Shown: one piece after another, positions 3,816 through 8,166 of the stretch
Position numbering within the stretch: the stretch's first letter is position 1
Layout of the letters: each line of letters opens with the position of its first letter
Source: Planctomycetota bacterium
Lineage (GTDB): Bacteria > Planctomycetota > Phycisphaerae > FEN-1346
Reading direction: 5' to 3'
DNA: 9,024 nt
Assembly (NCBI GenBank): GCA_026386995.1
Contig: JAPLMO010000196.1
Span: forward strand, 1 to 9,024
The notes under the pieces: model-generated
Database searches by the model: none
Seen by the model: only the letters and a program-made list of their open reading frames with translations
Told to the model about the DNA's origin: nothing
Program-made: the position numbers and the translations under genes

Positions 3816-5015
3816 TCAGGCCATGGGGGCCTGCGCCATAGGGTGGAAGGGCTGGCCCGTTCCAGGACGAGAGTTCTTCTGGGACCGACGCGTCTCGCGC
3901 CCGCTCCCGGGCCGACGCGGCAGCGCCTCACAATAGGCCACGTTTCGACTCCACACGATATAGACCACCTTCACCAGTTCCCGAGCTACCTTGATGTACC
4001 CCCGGCCACGGTTCTTCCGGCCGCCCTCGGTCGCCCGATCAAACATCGCACGCCACTTCCCGCCACGCCTCACCGCCCCGTGCGCCGCCTCGATGAACGT
4101 CCATTTCAGCGTCCGGTTCCCCCGGCCCCCGAGGTGCCGGCCCAGCGGCGCCCGCTCAGGGTGCGATTCTCCCGTGTCGTCCGACCGCGGTGCCAGACAT
4201 GCGTACGCCGCCAACTTCCGATGGTTCTTGAACCGTCCGATGTCCCCGATCTCCGACCGCAGCGTGTGCGACAGGATCAGCCCGATCCCCGGAATCCCGT
4301 CCAGACGCCTGGCCAGTTCGTCACGCTCCAACTGCCCGTGCAGCGTCTTCGCAATTTCCAGCAGCTGCCCACGCAGGTACGTATGCAAACTTACCAGACC
4401 GCGCAACGCCTGCCGCGCGCCGTCCGGCAACACGCCGCCCGCGTGCCGGCCGTCCTGGCTCAATTGCTCCAGGAAGCGCCGGCCCAGGCCGCCGAACAGG
4501 TCCGTCCTCTCCTCGAAGAAAATCCCATGCCGGTGAAACACCGAGTGAATCCGGTTCTTCGTCCCGCTCGTGAGCCCCACCATGTCCGCCCGATACCGCA
4601 TCCACTCCCGACGGTCTCGCACGTCGGCCGGCGCCCGCCACACCATCCACCACGGCTCCGGATCCGACGGCGTCTCCGCCGGAAGCAGCGACAACAGGTC
4701 CGCGTCCTTCTTGTTCGTCTTCACCCATCCGCGGGCCTTGCGCATCCCGTCCACCTTGTAGCAGTTCGACAACTGCGGGTCCAAGCCGACCTCTTCCAAG
4801 AGGTCGCTCAGCCACCCCCATCCGAACGACGCCTCCAGCACGATCGGTATCCCCTTCGGCCACCGCGCCAACTGCTCTCGCAACCCGCTCCGGTTGGTGT
4901 GATCGAGTTGCTCACGCGCCACCACCCTGCCGTCCGCGTCCCGAAACGTCACGTGGCTCGACTTGTAGTGGACATCCATCCCGCCACAGGCTACACTCGC
5001 GTACCGATTCTTCAT
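3816..5015 (-). CDS. IS110-family transposase (DEDD recombinase)
   Basis: A 399-residue recombinase. The N-terminal RuvC-like DEDD domain shows D14 (GGMDVH), E61 (VLEAS) and D104 in KTNKKDA. A helical middle part follows, with RYRADMV and KNRIHSVFHRHGI. The C-terminal Transposase_20 domain begins with a helix-hairpin-helix (GIPGIGLILSHTL), then YACLAPRSDDTGE and GGRGNRTLKWTFIEAA. The C-tail ends in SRPGTGQPFHPM, a style I associate with IS110 proteins. ATG 5015 is chosen because a strong AAGGAGG (5022-5028) lies 7 nt upstream. By eye, the third acidic residue of the DEDD set is Asn (N101 in KTN) and the SG motif that carries the catalytic serine reads TG (T281). This may reduce activity or mark a subgroup. 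The frame is open upstream into the neighbouring membrane protein gene. Confidence 0.92.
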   Translation of the reverse strand: MKNRYASVACGGMDVHYKSSHVTFRDADGRVVAREQLDHTNRSGLREQLARWPKGIPIVLEASFGWGWLSDLLEEVGLDPQLSNCYKVDGMRKARGWVKTNKKDADLLSLLPAETPSDPEPWWMVWRAPADVRDRREWMRYRADMVGLTSGTKNRIHSVFHRHGIFFEERTDLFGGLGRRFLEQLSQDGRHAGGVLPDGARQALRGLVSLHTYLRGQLLEIAKTLHGQLERDELARRLDGIPGIGLILSHTLRSEIGDIGRFKNHRKLAAYACLAPRSDDTGESHPERAPLGRHLGGRGNRTLKWTFIEAAHGAVRRGGKWRAMFDRATEGGRKNRGRGYIKVARELVKVVYIVWSRNVAYCEALPRRPGSGRETRRSQKNSRPGTGQPFHPMAQAPMA

Positions 5016-5121
5016 GGGCTGCCTCCTTCCTGGTCCCTTGGTTCTACCAATACCCAAGAGACTACACGGTTGGTGGCAGCCTTTCATGGGATTACATGAA
5101 CGGCAATTCGGCAACAGACCT
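5016..5121 (-). ncRNA. Candidate bridge RNA / structured leader of the IS110 recombinase
   Basis: IS110 elements make a bridge RNA, usually from the non-coding end before the recombinase. Here the minus-strand leader folds into a hairpin TTCATG/CATGAA (5083-5100, 6 nt loop), then a larger domain: a perfect 7 bp outer stem GGCTGCC/GGCAGCC (5075-5081 with 5017-5023), a 12 + 9 nt internal loop, a 9 bp inner stem with one G-U pair (5054-5062 with 5033-5041) and a 12 nt terminal loop. This stem, internal loop, stem, loop shape is that of the target- or donor-binding loops. Part of the AAGGAGG ribosome site lies in the outer stem. The visible length (106 nt) is shorter than the IS621 bridge RNA, so the 5' end may lie further upstream. 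The fold was found by eye, without energy calculation. Confidence 0.45.
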
Positions 5122-5140
5122 CGGAGACCCGCCGCGCAAA
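5122..5140 (-). repeat. Second copy of the 19 bp repeat, at the presumed IS110 left junction
   Basis: Exact match, on the minus strand, to 3304-3322. Both copies start about 20 nt after a shared TGACA-R-CG and point the same way relative to the gene they follow. The GCGCAA partner that completes the hairpin in the other copy is missing here, as expected if the element has been split. Confidence 0.65.
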
Positions 5141-6479
5141 CCCTTGAGAGTTTCGCTGTCACACCTCCTCCGCCGAAGTAGCGGCGGACCACGTCGCGGT
5201 CTTCGGGTTTGACCTCGGCCCCGGCGACGGCGGCAACCGTGCCCTGCCCTTCGGCGACCGAGCCCGCTGATTGACCCGAATTCGCGGGCAGTCCCGAGCC
5301 CGCGGCGGGAGCCGCGGGGAATTCCCGAACGCCCGCCCCGCTTCCAGTCGTCGTGGCGGCCGGCAACTCCTCCAGCCCCATCGCCCGGCGGGCCTCGCCG
5401 ACGACTGCCACGAGGCCCTGTACGCCCGCGCCGGGGGGCTCAGCCAGGTCCTGCGTCATCCGGGCGGCCAGGTCGAGAAGGGCGCGGCGGGCGGCGTCGG
5501 CATCGGCCCGGCGAAGGGCGTCGGCCGTGGCTTCCAACTGCTCGGCAAGTTTGGGGAACTGCTCGCCCCGGGCCACGCCGGCCGCGCCCGAGAGACCGTC
5601 GGCCACGCGGCGGCGGTCCGCCTCGGGGGCCGCGGGCGAGTTCGCCTGCGGCGCGAGCCGCGACGCCGCCTTTTCGGCGGCCGACGCCGCGCCGGCCGCA
5701 TCGGCCGCGGCCGCCGCGCGGGCCATCGCTTCCACCTCGGGGCTGCCGATCTTCTGGAACTCCTCGAGCGTCGTCCGCCGGGAGCGGGCGACACGAACGG
5801 CCGTCACGACGGTCTCGCGGGTCGCCTCGTCGGCGGTCGACCGTCTGAGGCCCGCCTCGGTCAGCGCCTGGATGGTGCGCGCGATCTGGCCGCGGACTTC
5901 CGGGCTGACCGCCTCGGGCTTCTCTGCGGCCCCGCGGCCGCGGGCCTCGGCCGCGCGCTCCGCCGCCTGCCTCGCCACGGGCGGGCCGCCCGCCGGCGGC
6001 ACAATCGCCGCCGCCGCGAGCACGAGGACCGCCGCCAGGAGCACCTTGAGGCTCCGGCCGGCCGTCCGGGCCAGGCTGAGGCGCGACGGGTCCAGCGCGG
6101 CCGCAGCCTGGGCGGCCTGCCCGGCGAGCCGCTCGTCGAGCGCGCCCGGCGGCTCGCGCCCCAGGACTTCCAGGGCGGTGGCCAGCCGCTCCTTCAGGCC
6201 CGCCGCGTGGTCCGCCGCAACGGCCGCCTGGCGAAGCGAGACGCCCATCACGAGGCGCATGAGAAACCCGAGGGCAAAGCCGCACGCCACAAGGGCCAGC
6301 GGCAGTGCCGGATGCCCCGCGGCCAGCGGCACAGACTCGGGCCGCAGGATGCGCAAGGCCGTGACGGCGGCCGCCACCGGCGCCGCGGCGATCGCCCCCA
6401 GCAGCCCCGCCTCCATCGCGCGCACCAGCAGCAGGCGGCGGCGGATGAGACGTAGCGAGTTAATCAGGGGCTTGGCCAT
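5122..6479 (-). CDS. Alanine-rich three-helix membrane protein, 3' end disturbed by IS110
   Basis: Not recognised with certainty. ATG 6479 opens a protein with hydrophobic helices at about residues 22-44, 57-78 and 143-161, then a long Ala/Arg/Glu-rich helical region (about 165-390) that is probably extracytoplasmic, and a low-complexity Ala/Gly stretch ending in EDRDVVRRYFGGGG (to residue 439). The motif ADHAAGLKERLATALEV after helix 2 and the terminal RDVVRRYF resemble DUF4175-like proteins found near MoxR/BatA clusters; this link is inference. A natural stop is not seen: the frame continues through the 19 bp repeat and the IS leader into the recombinase, so the open frame is 3816-6479, 887 residues. 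Most of the protein appears intact, since RRYF motifs usually lie close to the C-terminus of such proteins. The start has only a weak GAGG ribosome site. Confidence 0.6.
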
Positions 6480-6520: not shown

Positions 6521-6639
6521 CAATGCAGAAGGCAGAATGAAGAATGCAGAATGAAAAACAGAATCAAGAACGCGGGCTGGCCGCCGCATGCCCGGCATTT
6601 CTTTTTTTATTCTGCATTCTGCATTCTCTATTCTGCATT
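6521..6639. repeat. Imperfect inverted repeat built from GCAGAAT units
   Basis: The left arm (6521-6562) and the complement of the right arm (6598-6639) both read AATGCAGAA, three differing bases, AGAATG, one differing base, AGAATGCAGAAT and an A-rich run: about 41 nt with few differences. A GC-rich spacer of about 35 nt lies between. It starts 3 nt after the rpoN stop in the direction of transcription. It may act as the rpoN terminator and may shield the next gene; it also looks like a small mobile inverted-repeat element. Confidence 0.7.
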
Positions 6640-6642
6640 TCT

Positions 6643-6966
6643 TTAGTATTGCCTGCGGCGCCGTGATGACGGGATGCCCAGTTCCTCGCGGTACTTGGCA
6701 ACGGTGCGGCGGGCCAGGTCGATGCCCTCGCCCTTGAGCATGTCGACGAGTTGCTCGTCGGAGAGCGGGTTGGACTTGTCCTCGGCCTCGACGACGGCCT
6801 TCAGGCGTACGCGGACGCGGTCCCAACTGACTTTCTGGCCCTCGGCCGTCTGCGTGCCGCCCGTAAAGAAATCGCGCAGCGCGAAGATGCCCCACGGCGT
6901 GTCGGCGTACTTGTCGGCGACCGAGCGGCTGATGGTGCCGACATGCAGGTGGACGTCGTCGGCCAC
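6643..6966 (-). CDS. rpoN: C-terminal fragment of sigma-54: HTH and RpoN box
   Basis: This 107-codon frame directly continues the rpoN frame after the TAG at 6967-6969. It holds the promoter-binding part of sigma-54: the helix-turn-helix (VADDVHLHVGTISRSVADKY), the FALRDFF motif, and a complete RpoN box ARRTVAKYRE near the C-terminus, which reads the -24 element. It could be made alone from the GTG directly after the stop, but no Shine-Dalgarno is evident, so independent translation is doubtful. Its preserved sequence suggests the nonsense change is recent, or an assembly error. Confidence 0.8.
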   Translation of the reverse strand: MADDVHLHVGTISRSVADKYADTPWGIFALRDFFTGGTQTAEGQKVSWDRVRVRLKAVVEAEDKSNPLSDEQLVDMLKGEGIDLARRTVAKYREELGIPSSRRRRQY

Positions 6967-8166
6967 CTACTGCATCTTCAGGGGCCGGGTATGGTCGGGC
7001 CCATCGTCGAAGAACGGACGCTGGTACTTCACGATCGATTCGACGACGCGCCGCAGCGTGTCGCGCCGCTGCTCGATGGCGTCCATCAGCCACCTGGCCG
7101 ACCGGATGTTGTTGGCGACGAACTGGCGGGTCTTTTCGTCGAGGTCGCGGCGCTTGACGAGGCGGCGGTACGCGCGGCTGATGTAAAGTTCGGGAACCCC
7201 GCCCTTCTCGGCGCTCACGCGGTACTGGCCAGCCTCGTCGTCCCACTCGATGCGGACGTCGGGGACGATGGGGGGCGTGCGGCGGGGGCTGATGGCCGAG
7301 CCGGGCTTGGGGTTCAGGCGGCGGATGCTTTCGACCGCCTGCTTGACCTCTTCGATCGACGCCCCCAGGGCCTTGGCGATCTGCGGGTACCGGTTGGCCG
7401 AGAGGTCGCGCAGGTGGTGGCGGATGATGCGGACCTCGATCGAGTCCGCGGGCAGCGGGCCGCTGCGCTCCGGGTCGGCCTGTAACTGCAGGAGCAGGCA
7501 CTCTTCGATAGAGCGGGCGCCGACGCCGGGAGGCCCGACGCGCTGGACGCCCGCCAGGGCCTCTTCCATCTCGGCGGGCGCGGCGGGGGGGGCGGCCTCG
7601 TTGGCCAGTTCCTCCAGCGGCACGCGCACGTAGCCGTTGTCGTCGAGGTTGCGGATGATGAGTTCGCCGAGGAGCATGAGGCGCGGCGTGGCTTCCTCGA
7701 CGTGCCACAGGGCAAGCATGTGTTCCTGGAGCGTTAGGCCGACGTCGGCCGTGTTCTGCATGGCCTCGGTCTTGGCGTCGGCGTCCTGGTCGCTCGTCCG
7801 GGGCCGGCGCCCGCCACCTTCCCCTTCGGTCTCGAAATAGTTCTCCCAGCGATCGACGAGGTTGGAGAGGCGTTCGAAGTCCTCGGGGCTTCCGTCGTCC
7901 CGGACGACCAGGTCCTTCTCGCTCTCGGCGACGGGCGAATCGGGCGCGACCTCGGGTTCGCCGGCCTCGGCCGCATCCGACGGCAGGGCGGGCTCGCCAT
8001 CGTCGCCCGAGCGAATCTCCAGCACCGGGTTGGCGATGAGTTCCTGCTCGATCCGCTCCTGGAGGGCCTGGAGGGGCAACTGGAGAATCTCCATGGCCTG
8101 GATCATCCTCGGGGCGAGGATCATCCGCTGCTCAAGGCGCTGGTGCAGGCTGGTGTCAAAACGCAT
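6967..8166 (-). CDS. rpoN: RNA polymerase sigma-54 factor, interrupted by an in-frame TAG
   Basis: Residues 1-399 of sigma-54. Region I (HQRLEQRMILAPRMIQAMEIL and the following ELIANPVLE, about 8-51) is the activator-interacting domain. An acidic region II linker follows (about 52-140). The core-binding domain runs from LTLQEHMLALWHV through NLDDNGY, NPKPG and ARWLMDAIEQR to the start of the HTH. The frame stops at TAG 6967-6969 between RPLKMQ and VADDV. Reading through gives 507 residues, the usual sigma-54 length, with no frame change. A conserved acidic residue normally sits at that point, so one GAG to TAG change explains it. The truncated product could bind core polymerase but not promoters. 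ATG 8166 lies 55 nt after the recR stop, with a weak GGAAG further upstream, suggesting one transcript with recR. Confidence 0.93.
   Translation of the reverse strand: MRFDTSLHQRLEQRMILAPRMIQAMEILQLPLQALQERIEQELIANPVLEIRSGDDGEPALPSDAAEAGEPEVAPDSPVAESEKDLVVRDDGSPEDFERLSNLVDRWENYFETEGEGGGRRPRTSDQDADAKTEAMQNTADVGLTLQEHMLALWHVEEATPRLMLLGELIIRNLDDNGYVRVPLEELANEAAPPAAPAEMEEALAGVQRVGPPGVGARSIEECLLLQLQADPERSGPLPADSIEVRIIRHHLRDLSANRYPQIAKALGASIEEVKQAVESIRRLNPKPGSAISPRRTPPIVPDVRIEWDDEAGQYRVSAEKGGVPELYISRAYRRLVKRRDLDEKTRQFVANNIRSARWLMDAIEQRRDTLRRVVESIVKYQRPFFDDGPDHTRPLKMQ

Follow-up and report, generated by a model that had tools for sequence, protein, structure and literature searches.

The window analyzed here, a 9,024-nucleotide stretch of a planctomycete contig, carries an rpoN gene encoding sigma-54 together with recR, ccsA, resB, a gene at positions 3-557 and an open frame containing an IS110-family transposase. 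As in most of the relatives' loci, rpoN stands next to recR. The gene resembles known sigma-54 genes (RpoN; PF00309/PF04963/PF04552, TIGR02395) in possessing the three expected domains in order, but unlike them it contains an in-frame TAG at codon 400 (Table 1). With the TAG taken as a residue, the frame comprises 507 residues between the ATG at 8166 and the TAA ending at 6643, and apart from codon 400 no second stop or frameshift was found in the translation of these 507 residues. The locus is therefore not one unbroken frame but an interrupted one, with the break at codon 400.

Table 1. Features of the rpoN locus in the window
Feature	Position	Strand	Details
rpoN (sigma-54), complete frame	6643..8166	minus	507 codons plus stop, broken at codon 400
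In-frame TAG, codon 400 of rpoN	6967..6969	minus	From codon read-out
N-terminal piece	6967..8166	minus	399 aa plus TAG; activator-interacting and core-binding domains and start of the DNA-binding domain
Sigma54_AID match	8014..8151	minus	Residues 6-51, E 7.1e-14
Sigma54_CBD match	7168..7758	minus	Residues 137-333, E 2e-47
Sigma54_DBD, first part	6970..7125	minus	Residues 348-399; profile 2-53 of 160
Frame 3' of the TAG	6643..6966	minus	107 codons, the first GTG; rest of the helix-turn-helix and RpoN domain; Sigma54_DBD profile 56-160 of 160, E 1.3e-38
Presumed RpoN box, ARRTVAKYRE	6685..6714	minus	Intact, yet 3' of the TAG; read from the translation

The order of activator-interacting, core-binding and DNA-binding domains is kept across the two pieces, which cover TIGR02395 consecutively (1-327, then 330-434), and the Sigma54_DBD match of the tail (E 1.3e-38) is beyond chance. 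Judged by its domains and their order, the locus is a sigma-54 gene, with a product that is putative as a working sigma factor. The original prediction of a single TAG at codon 400, with the frame running on unshifted to 507 residues, was thus borne out by the codon read-out and by the way the pieces match consecutive parts of both Sigma54_DBD and TIGR02395. Its placement of the stop just before the DNA-binding domain was inexact, as the TAG lies inside Sigma54_DBD: in an alignment with E. coli-type sigma-54 chains of known structure, codon 400 comes to lie opposite the Asp of LADIAQ, within the first helix of the helix-turn-helix and near its start, given the limits that we presume for this motif. 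The sequence ARRTVAKYRE in the tail is what we take to be the RpoN box. Since 122 of the 506 other codons of the gene are likewise one base away from a stop, a TAG at codon 400 needs no special cause.

To place codon 400 among relatives, we searched with the window's sigma-54 and obtained 7511 proteins at E <= 1e-50. In the best 120 of these 7511, the facing residue is Gln in 59, Glu in 49, Ala in 4, Asp in 3 and Val in 1, with a gap in 4, a count that leaves out the placeholder of the query. The original prediction expected an acidic residue here, which agrees with the frequency of Glu but overlooks that Gln is as usual among these 120 relatives. Both CAG (Gln) and GAG (Glu) are one base from TAG, and in the DNA of the relatives' loci L001-L005, L025 and L026 the codon reads GAA, CAG, CAG, CAG, CAA, GCA and GAA, respectively. 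The closest homologue among the best 120, P0002, matches the query at 95% identity across 97% of the latter's length, carries Glu at codon 400 and retains an intact C-terminus.

Wider sampling gave the same picture. Within the order of genome G001, where all eight genomes match, none of nine matched sequences carries a stop in rpoN; seven of the genomes have one match, and in the eighth two contigs each carry a partial match. No stop occurs among the matches listed for a class sample in which 145 of 150 genomes match, nor among those listed for a larger sample in which the DNA-binding domain is matched in 374 of 397 genomes. A sequence pattern of the TAG form, run over the same 397 class genomes with two mismatches allowed, hit 160 of them. 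As a backward-read control of the pattern also hit many of these genomes, most of the hits are attributed to chance. Among the matches listed, six sites fall in rpoN by their coordinates (G002, G003, G004, G005, G006 and G008), and none has TAG at codon 400 (CAG in three, then GAG, GAA and CAA), which is a weak test, and the pattern misses rpoN copies with other flanking codons. The comparison of rpoN in close relatives that had been proposed as a check on the original prediction therefore places the stop in none of the relatives examined: it is absent from close relatives, as a nonsense allele would be, and it is not conserved across species, as a recoding signal would be, with the class samples represented in both statements by the matches listed. 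Because it is unseen in the relatives examined, the single TAG is most likely a recently broken copy or a sequencing error, and not a new mechanism. One class genome, G133, carries two full-length rpoN matches, so that the window's genome may conceivably hold a second copy.

Constraint on the 107 codons behind the stop was assessed through ratios of computed dN and dS values for codons 401-507. Between the window and L001, L002, L003, L025 and L026, tail dN/dS was 0.31, 0.31, 0.25, 0.36 and 0.19, compared with 0.19-0.42 among these five relatives themselves; L004 and L005 were aligned but excluded, and in two of the window's comparisons dS (0.40 and 0.41) falls slightly under the among-relatives range of 0.48-0.95. 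With eight further homologues as outgroup for assigning changes to branches, the tail has accumulated two changes on the window's side and none on that of P0002 since the two split, and residues 15-399 have seven on the window's side, ten on that of P0002 and six ambiguous. Relaxed constraint 3' of the TAG was thus not detected, either in dN/dS against the five relatives or in the two versus zero changes, which are too few to reveal any relaxation. By these sequence comparisons, selection acted on the tail until very recently, or still does. An unrelaxed tail is expected for a very young nonsense allele, and with the codons behind the stop under much the same constraint as their counterparts in relatives, the TAG should be of very recent origin, subject to read-through or spurious.

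We propose, with slightly more confidence than doubt, that the TAG is best read as a recent loss-of-function point mutation in rpoN and a real allele of the sampled strain. A recent single-base nonsense mutation would have hit rpoN in one sampled planctomycete strain, so that translation would end after Gln399. The predicted 399-residue product would retain the activator-interacting and core-binding domains, without most of the helix-turn-helix, responsible for -12 recognition, and without the entire RpoN domain, responsible for -24 recognition; with these parts missing, it should not direct transcription from sigma-54 promoters. The review PMC7057263 likewise assigns recognition of -12 to the helix-turn-helix and of -24 to the RpoN box, which suggests that the product would be deprived of what both need. 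The proposal takes the change to be present in the cell itself, sigma-54 function to be lost in the window's strain and the genome of that strain to hold no second rpoN. In its favor, the TAG stands in a frame that is otherwise undamaged. Against it, the near-universal retention of the gene across the class (DNA-binding domain matched in 374 of 397 genomes) argues that loss of sigma-54 is seldom tolerated.

The main rival, possible but with the balance somewhat against it, is that the assembled contig has a wrong base at codon 400 and the organism an ordinary sigma-54, and our weighting of a real allele against such an error is a matter of judgement, not of computation. What fits a nonsense allele also fits a base error: the stop is a singleton in every comparison made, it requires a single-base change, the tail is still constrained and rpoN is near-universal in the class. 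According to the authors of PMC7918605, many in-frame stops should prove artefactual, and comparable data contain what looks like error, in that the homologues P0117 and P0120 lose the reading frame near codon 390 and codon 385, respectively, the former appearing, from its protein read by eye, to be shifted again in the next gene. The neighboring genes speak against poor sequence, as recR aligns to relatives over its length with neither stop nor frameshift and ccsA extends to the end of its model. P0117 and P0120 lie on contigs of 86 and 85 kb, and their loss of frame near the window's codon 400 probably reflects assembly indels; a programmed event was rejected, given that the two sites differ and that P0117 seems shifted a second time.

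It is unlikely, on our assessment, that the TAG is read through or suppressed to yield full-length sigma-54 at a lower level. The relative-like dN/dS of the tail would suit such an arrangement, and PMC7918605 argues that bacterial read-through is frequent, but the stop is found in no relative examined and the RNA 3' of it folds about as its shuffles do (z -1.19, with 22 of 200 shuffles equally stable), so that folding against 200 shuffles revealed no stimulating structure behind the TAG. No tRNA gene was found in the window, and no Rfam family reached its gathering score there. Suppression of a general kind would also extend ccsA and recR, because both end in TAG; the remaining stops in the window are TAA in resB and rpoN and TGA in the IS110 open frame. 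That ccsA and recR end in TAG, as originally predicted, was confirmed; the stops lie near the usual C-termini, judged against relatives for recR and against the end of the model for ccsA, and this use of TAG, in two genes, argues against genome-wide reassignment of the codon.

We consider it highly improbable that the two pieces form a split sigma-54, in which a 399-aa piece would bind core and a piece of 107 aa, initiated at the GTG next to the TAG, would bind DNA. The GTG (6966) does lie directly 3' of the TAG, and 4 of 66 C-terminal database fragments begin at the same residue, 401. The cut would, however, fall in the first helix of the helix-turn-helix, so that a restart at the GTG begins within that motif, and no clear ribosome-binding site precedes it as judged by eye. 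None of the 123 aligned relatives ends at 399: 117 reach the C-terminus and the other six cease aligning at 302, 310, 347, 379, 385 and 390. Of the best 120 matches listed for the 399-aa half, none terminates at residue 399. The protein database is clustered at 90% identity, and a near-identical truncated form could hide in a cluster such as that of P0002, with two members. As for the 66 fragments, their starts pile up at residue 398 (13 fragments) and less so at 401 (4), a distribution that contig ends can produce and that we judge compatible with contig ends and internal start calling. Two of them, P0125 and P0126, have Val401 as their very first residue; P0125 matches the end of the full-length protein P0026 at 100% identity and P0126 that of P0031 at 99.1%, and these full-length proteins are themselves about 71-72% identical to the window's sigma-54. 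These two are the sole hint of recurrence at codon 400, and contig ends explain both as well. We accordingly give very little credence to the idea that sigma-54 is switched on and off recurrently and reversibly at codon 400, with amber forms arising repeatedly in the lineage and giving a core-binding, promoter-blind sigma that would damp sigma-54 transcription. The original prediction had left four options side by side (recent nonsense mutation, read-through, split protein and error); comparison with relatives favors nonsense mutation or error, with the split little supported and read-through without specific evidence.

PMC7918605 describes in-frame stops as occurring widely in bacterial genes, as transient for the most part and as including many artefacts. 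The TAG reported here resembles those stops in being isolated, in having a tail that is still constrained and in being apparently short-lived. It differs in that PMC7918605 required stops to be common to at least two species, whereas ours is found in one sequence only. Truncating and high-impact changes in rpoN itself have precedents. The phage-resistant Vibrio anguillarum PF4-R8 carries a 67-bp rpoN deletion with a frameshift (PMC6596326), the Pseudomonas aeruginosa chronic-infection isolate LESlike4 carries an rpoN deletion (PMC3914812), and high-impact rpoN mutations are described from longitudinal studies of P. aeruginosa chronic infection (PMC8190622). PMC3914812 also notes that none of its isolates was seen to have the growth defect that rpoN mutants usually show. 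As these three sources describe them, such mutants are selected laboratory or host-adapted strains, in contrast to the window, where a point change is seen in a single environmental sequence; what PMC10668709 reports is an insertion of four residues in RpoN and no stop. Searches for literature on truncated or dominant-negative rpoN and on substitution errors in metagenomes gave no paper, which is not proof of absence from print. At most, the window's rpoN adds one more to the known truncating or high-impact changes in this gene.

If the nonsense allele is real, a regulator retained almost throughout the class has been lost in one planctomycete strain, which would point to some setting in which cells can do without sigma-54. 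The case opens no new mechanism. If it is an error, the case becomes a caution about lone stops in contigs of unknown coverage.

The surroundings of rpoN show further peculiarities. The gene downstream of rpoN, also present at that place in L002, L003, L025, L026 and L027, is cut in the window by an IS110-family transposase (NF033542, E 4.9e-44), which is fused in frame with the cut gene into an 887-aa open frame (3816-6479, minus strand). For the remainder of the cut gene, no match turned up in the window when it was searched with the long open frames from the loci of three relatives, one locus ending within the gene. The break stems either from a true insertion accompanied by loss or from a join made at a repeat, and the broken neighbor could correspondingly reflect decay in this strain or such a join. 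Between rpoN and this gene, positions 6522-6639 hold a palindromic cluster of ATTCTGCATT-type repeats with 37-nt arms that are 86% complementary, and in P0117 another short repeat seems to occupy the same place after the sigma-54 gene, as read by eye from the protein. A second such element, an imperfect inverted repeat with 54-nt arms, 80% complementary, and nested GCATGCCCA-type palindromes, lies at 605-749 between the gene at 3-557 and resB.
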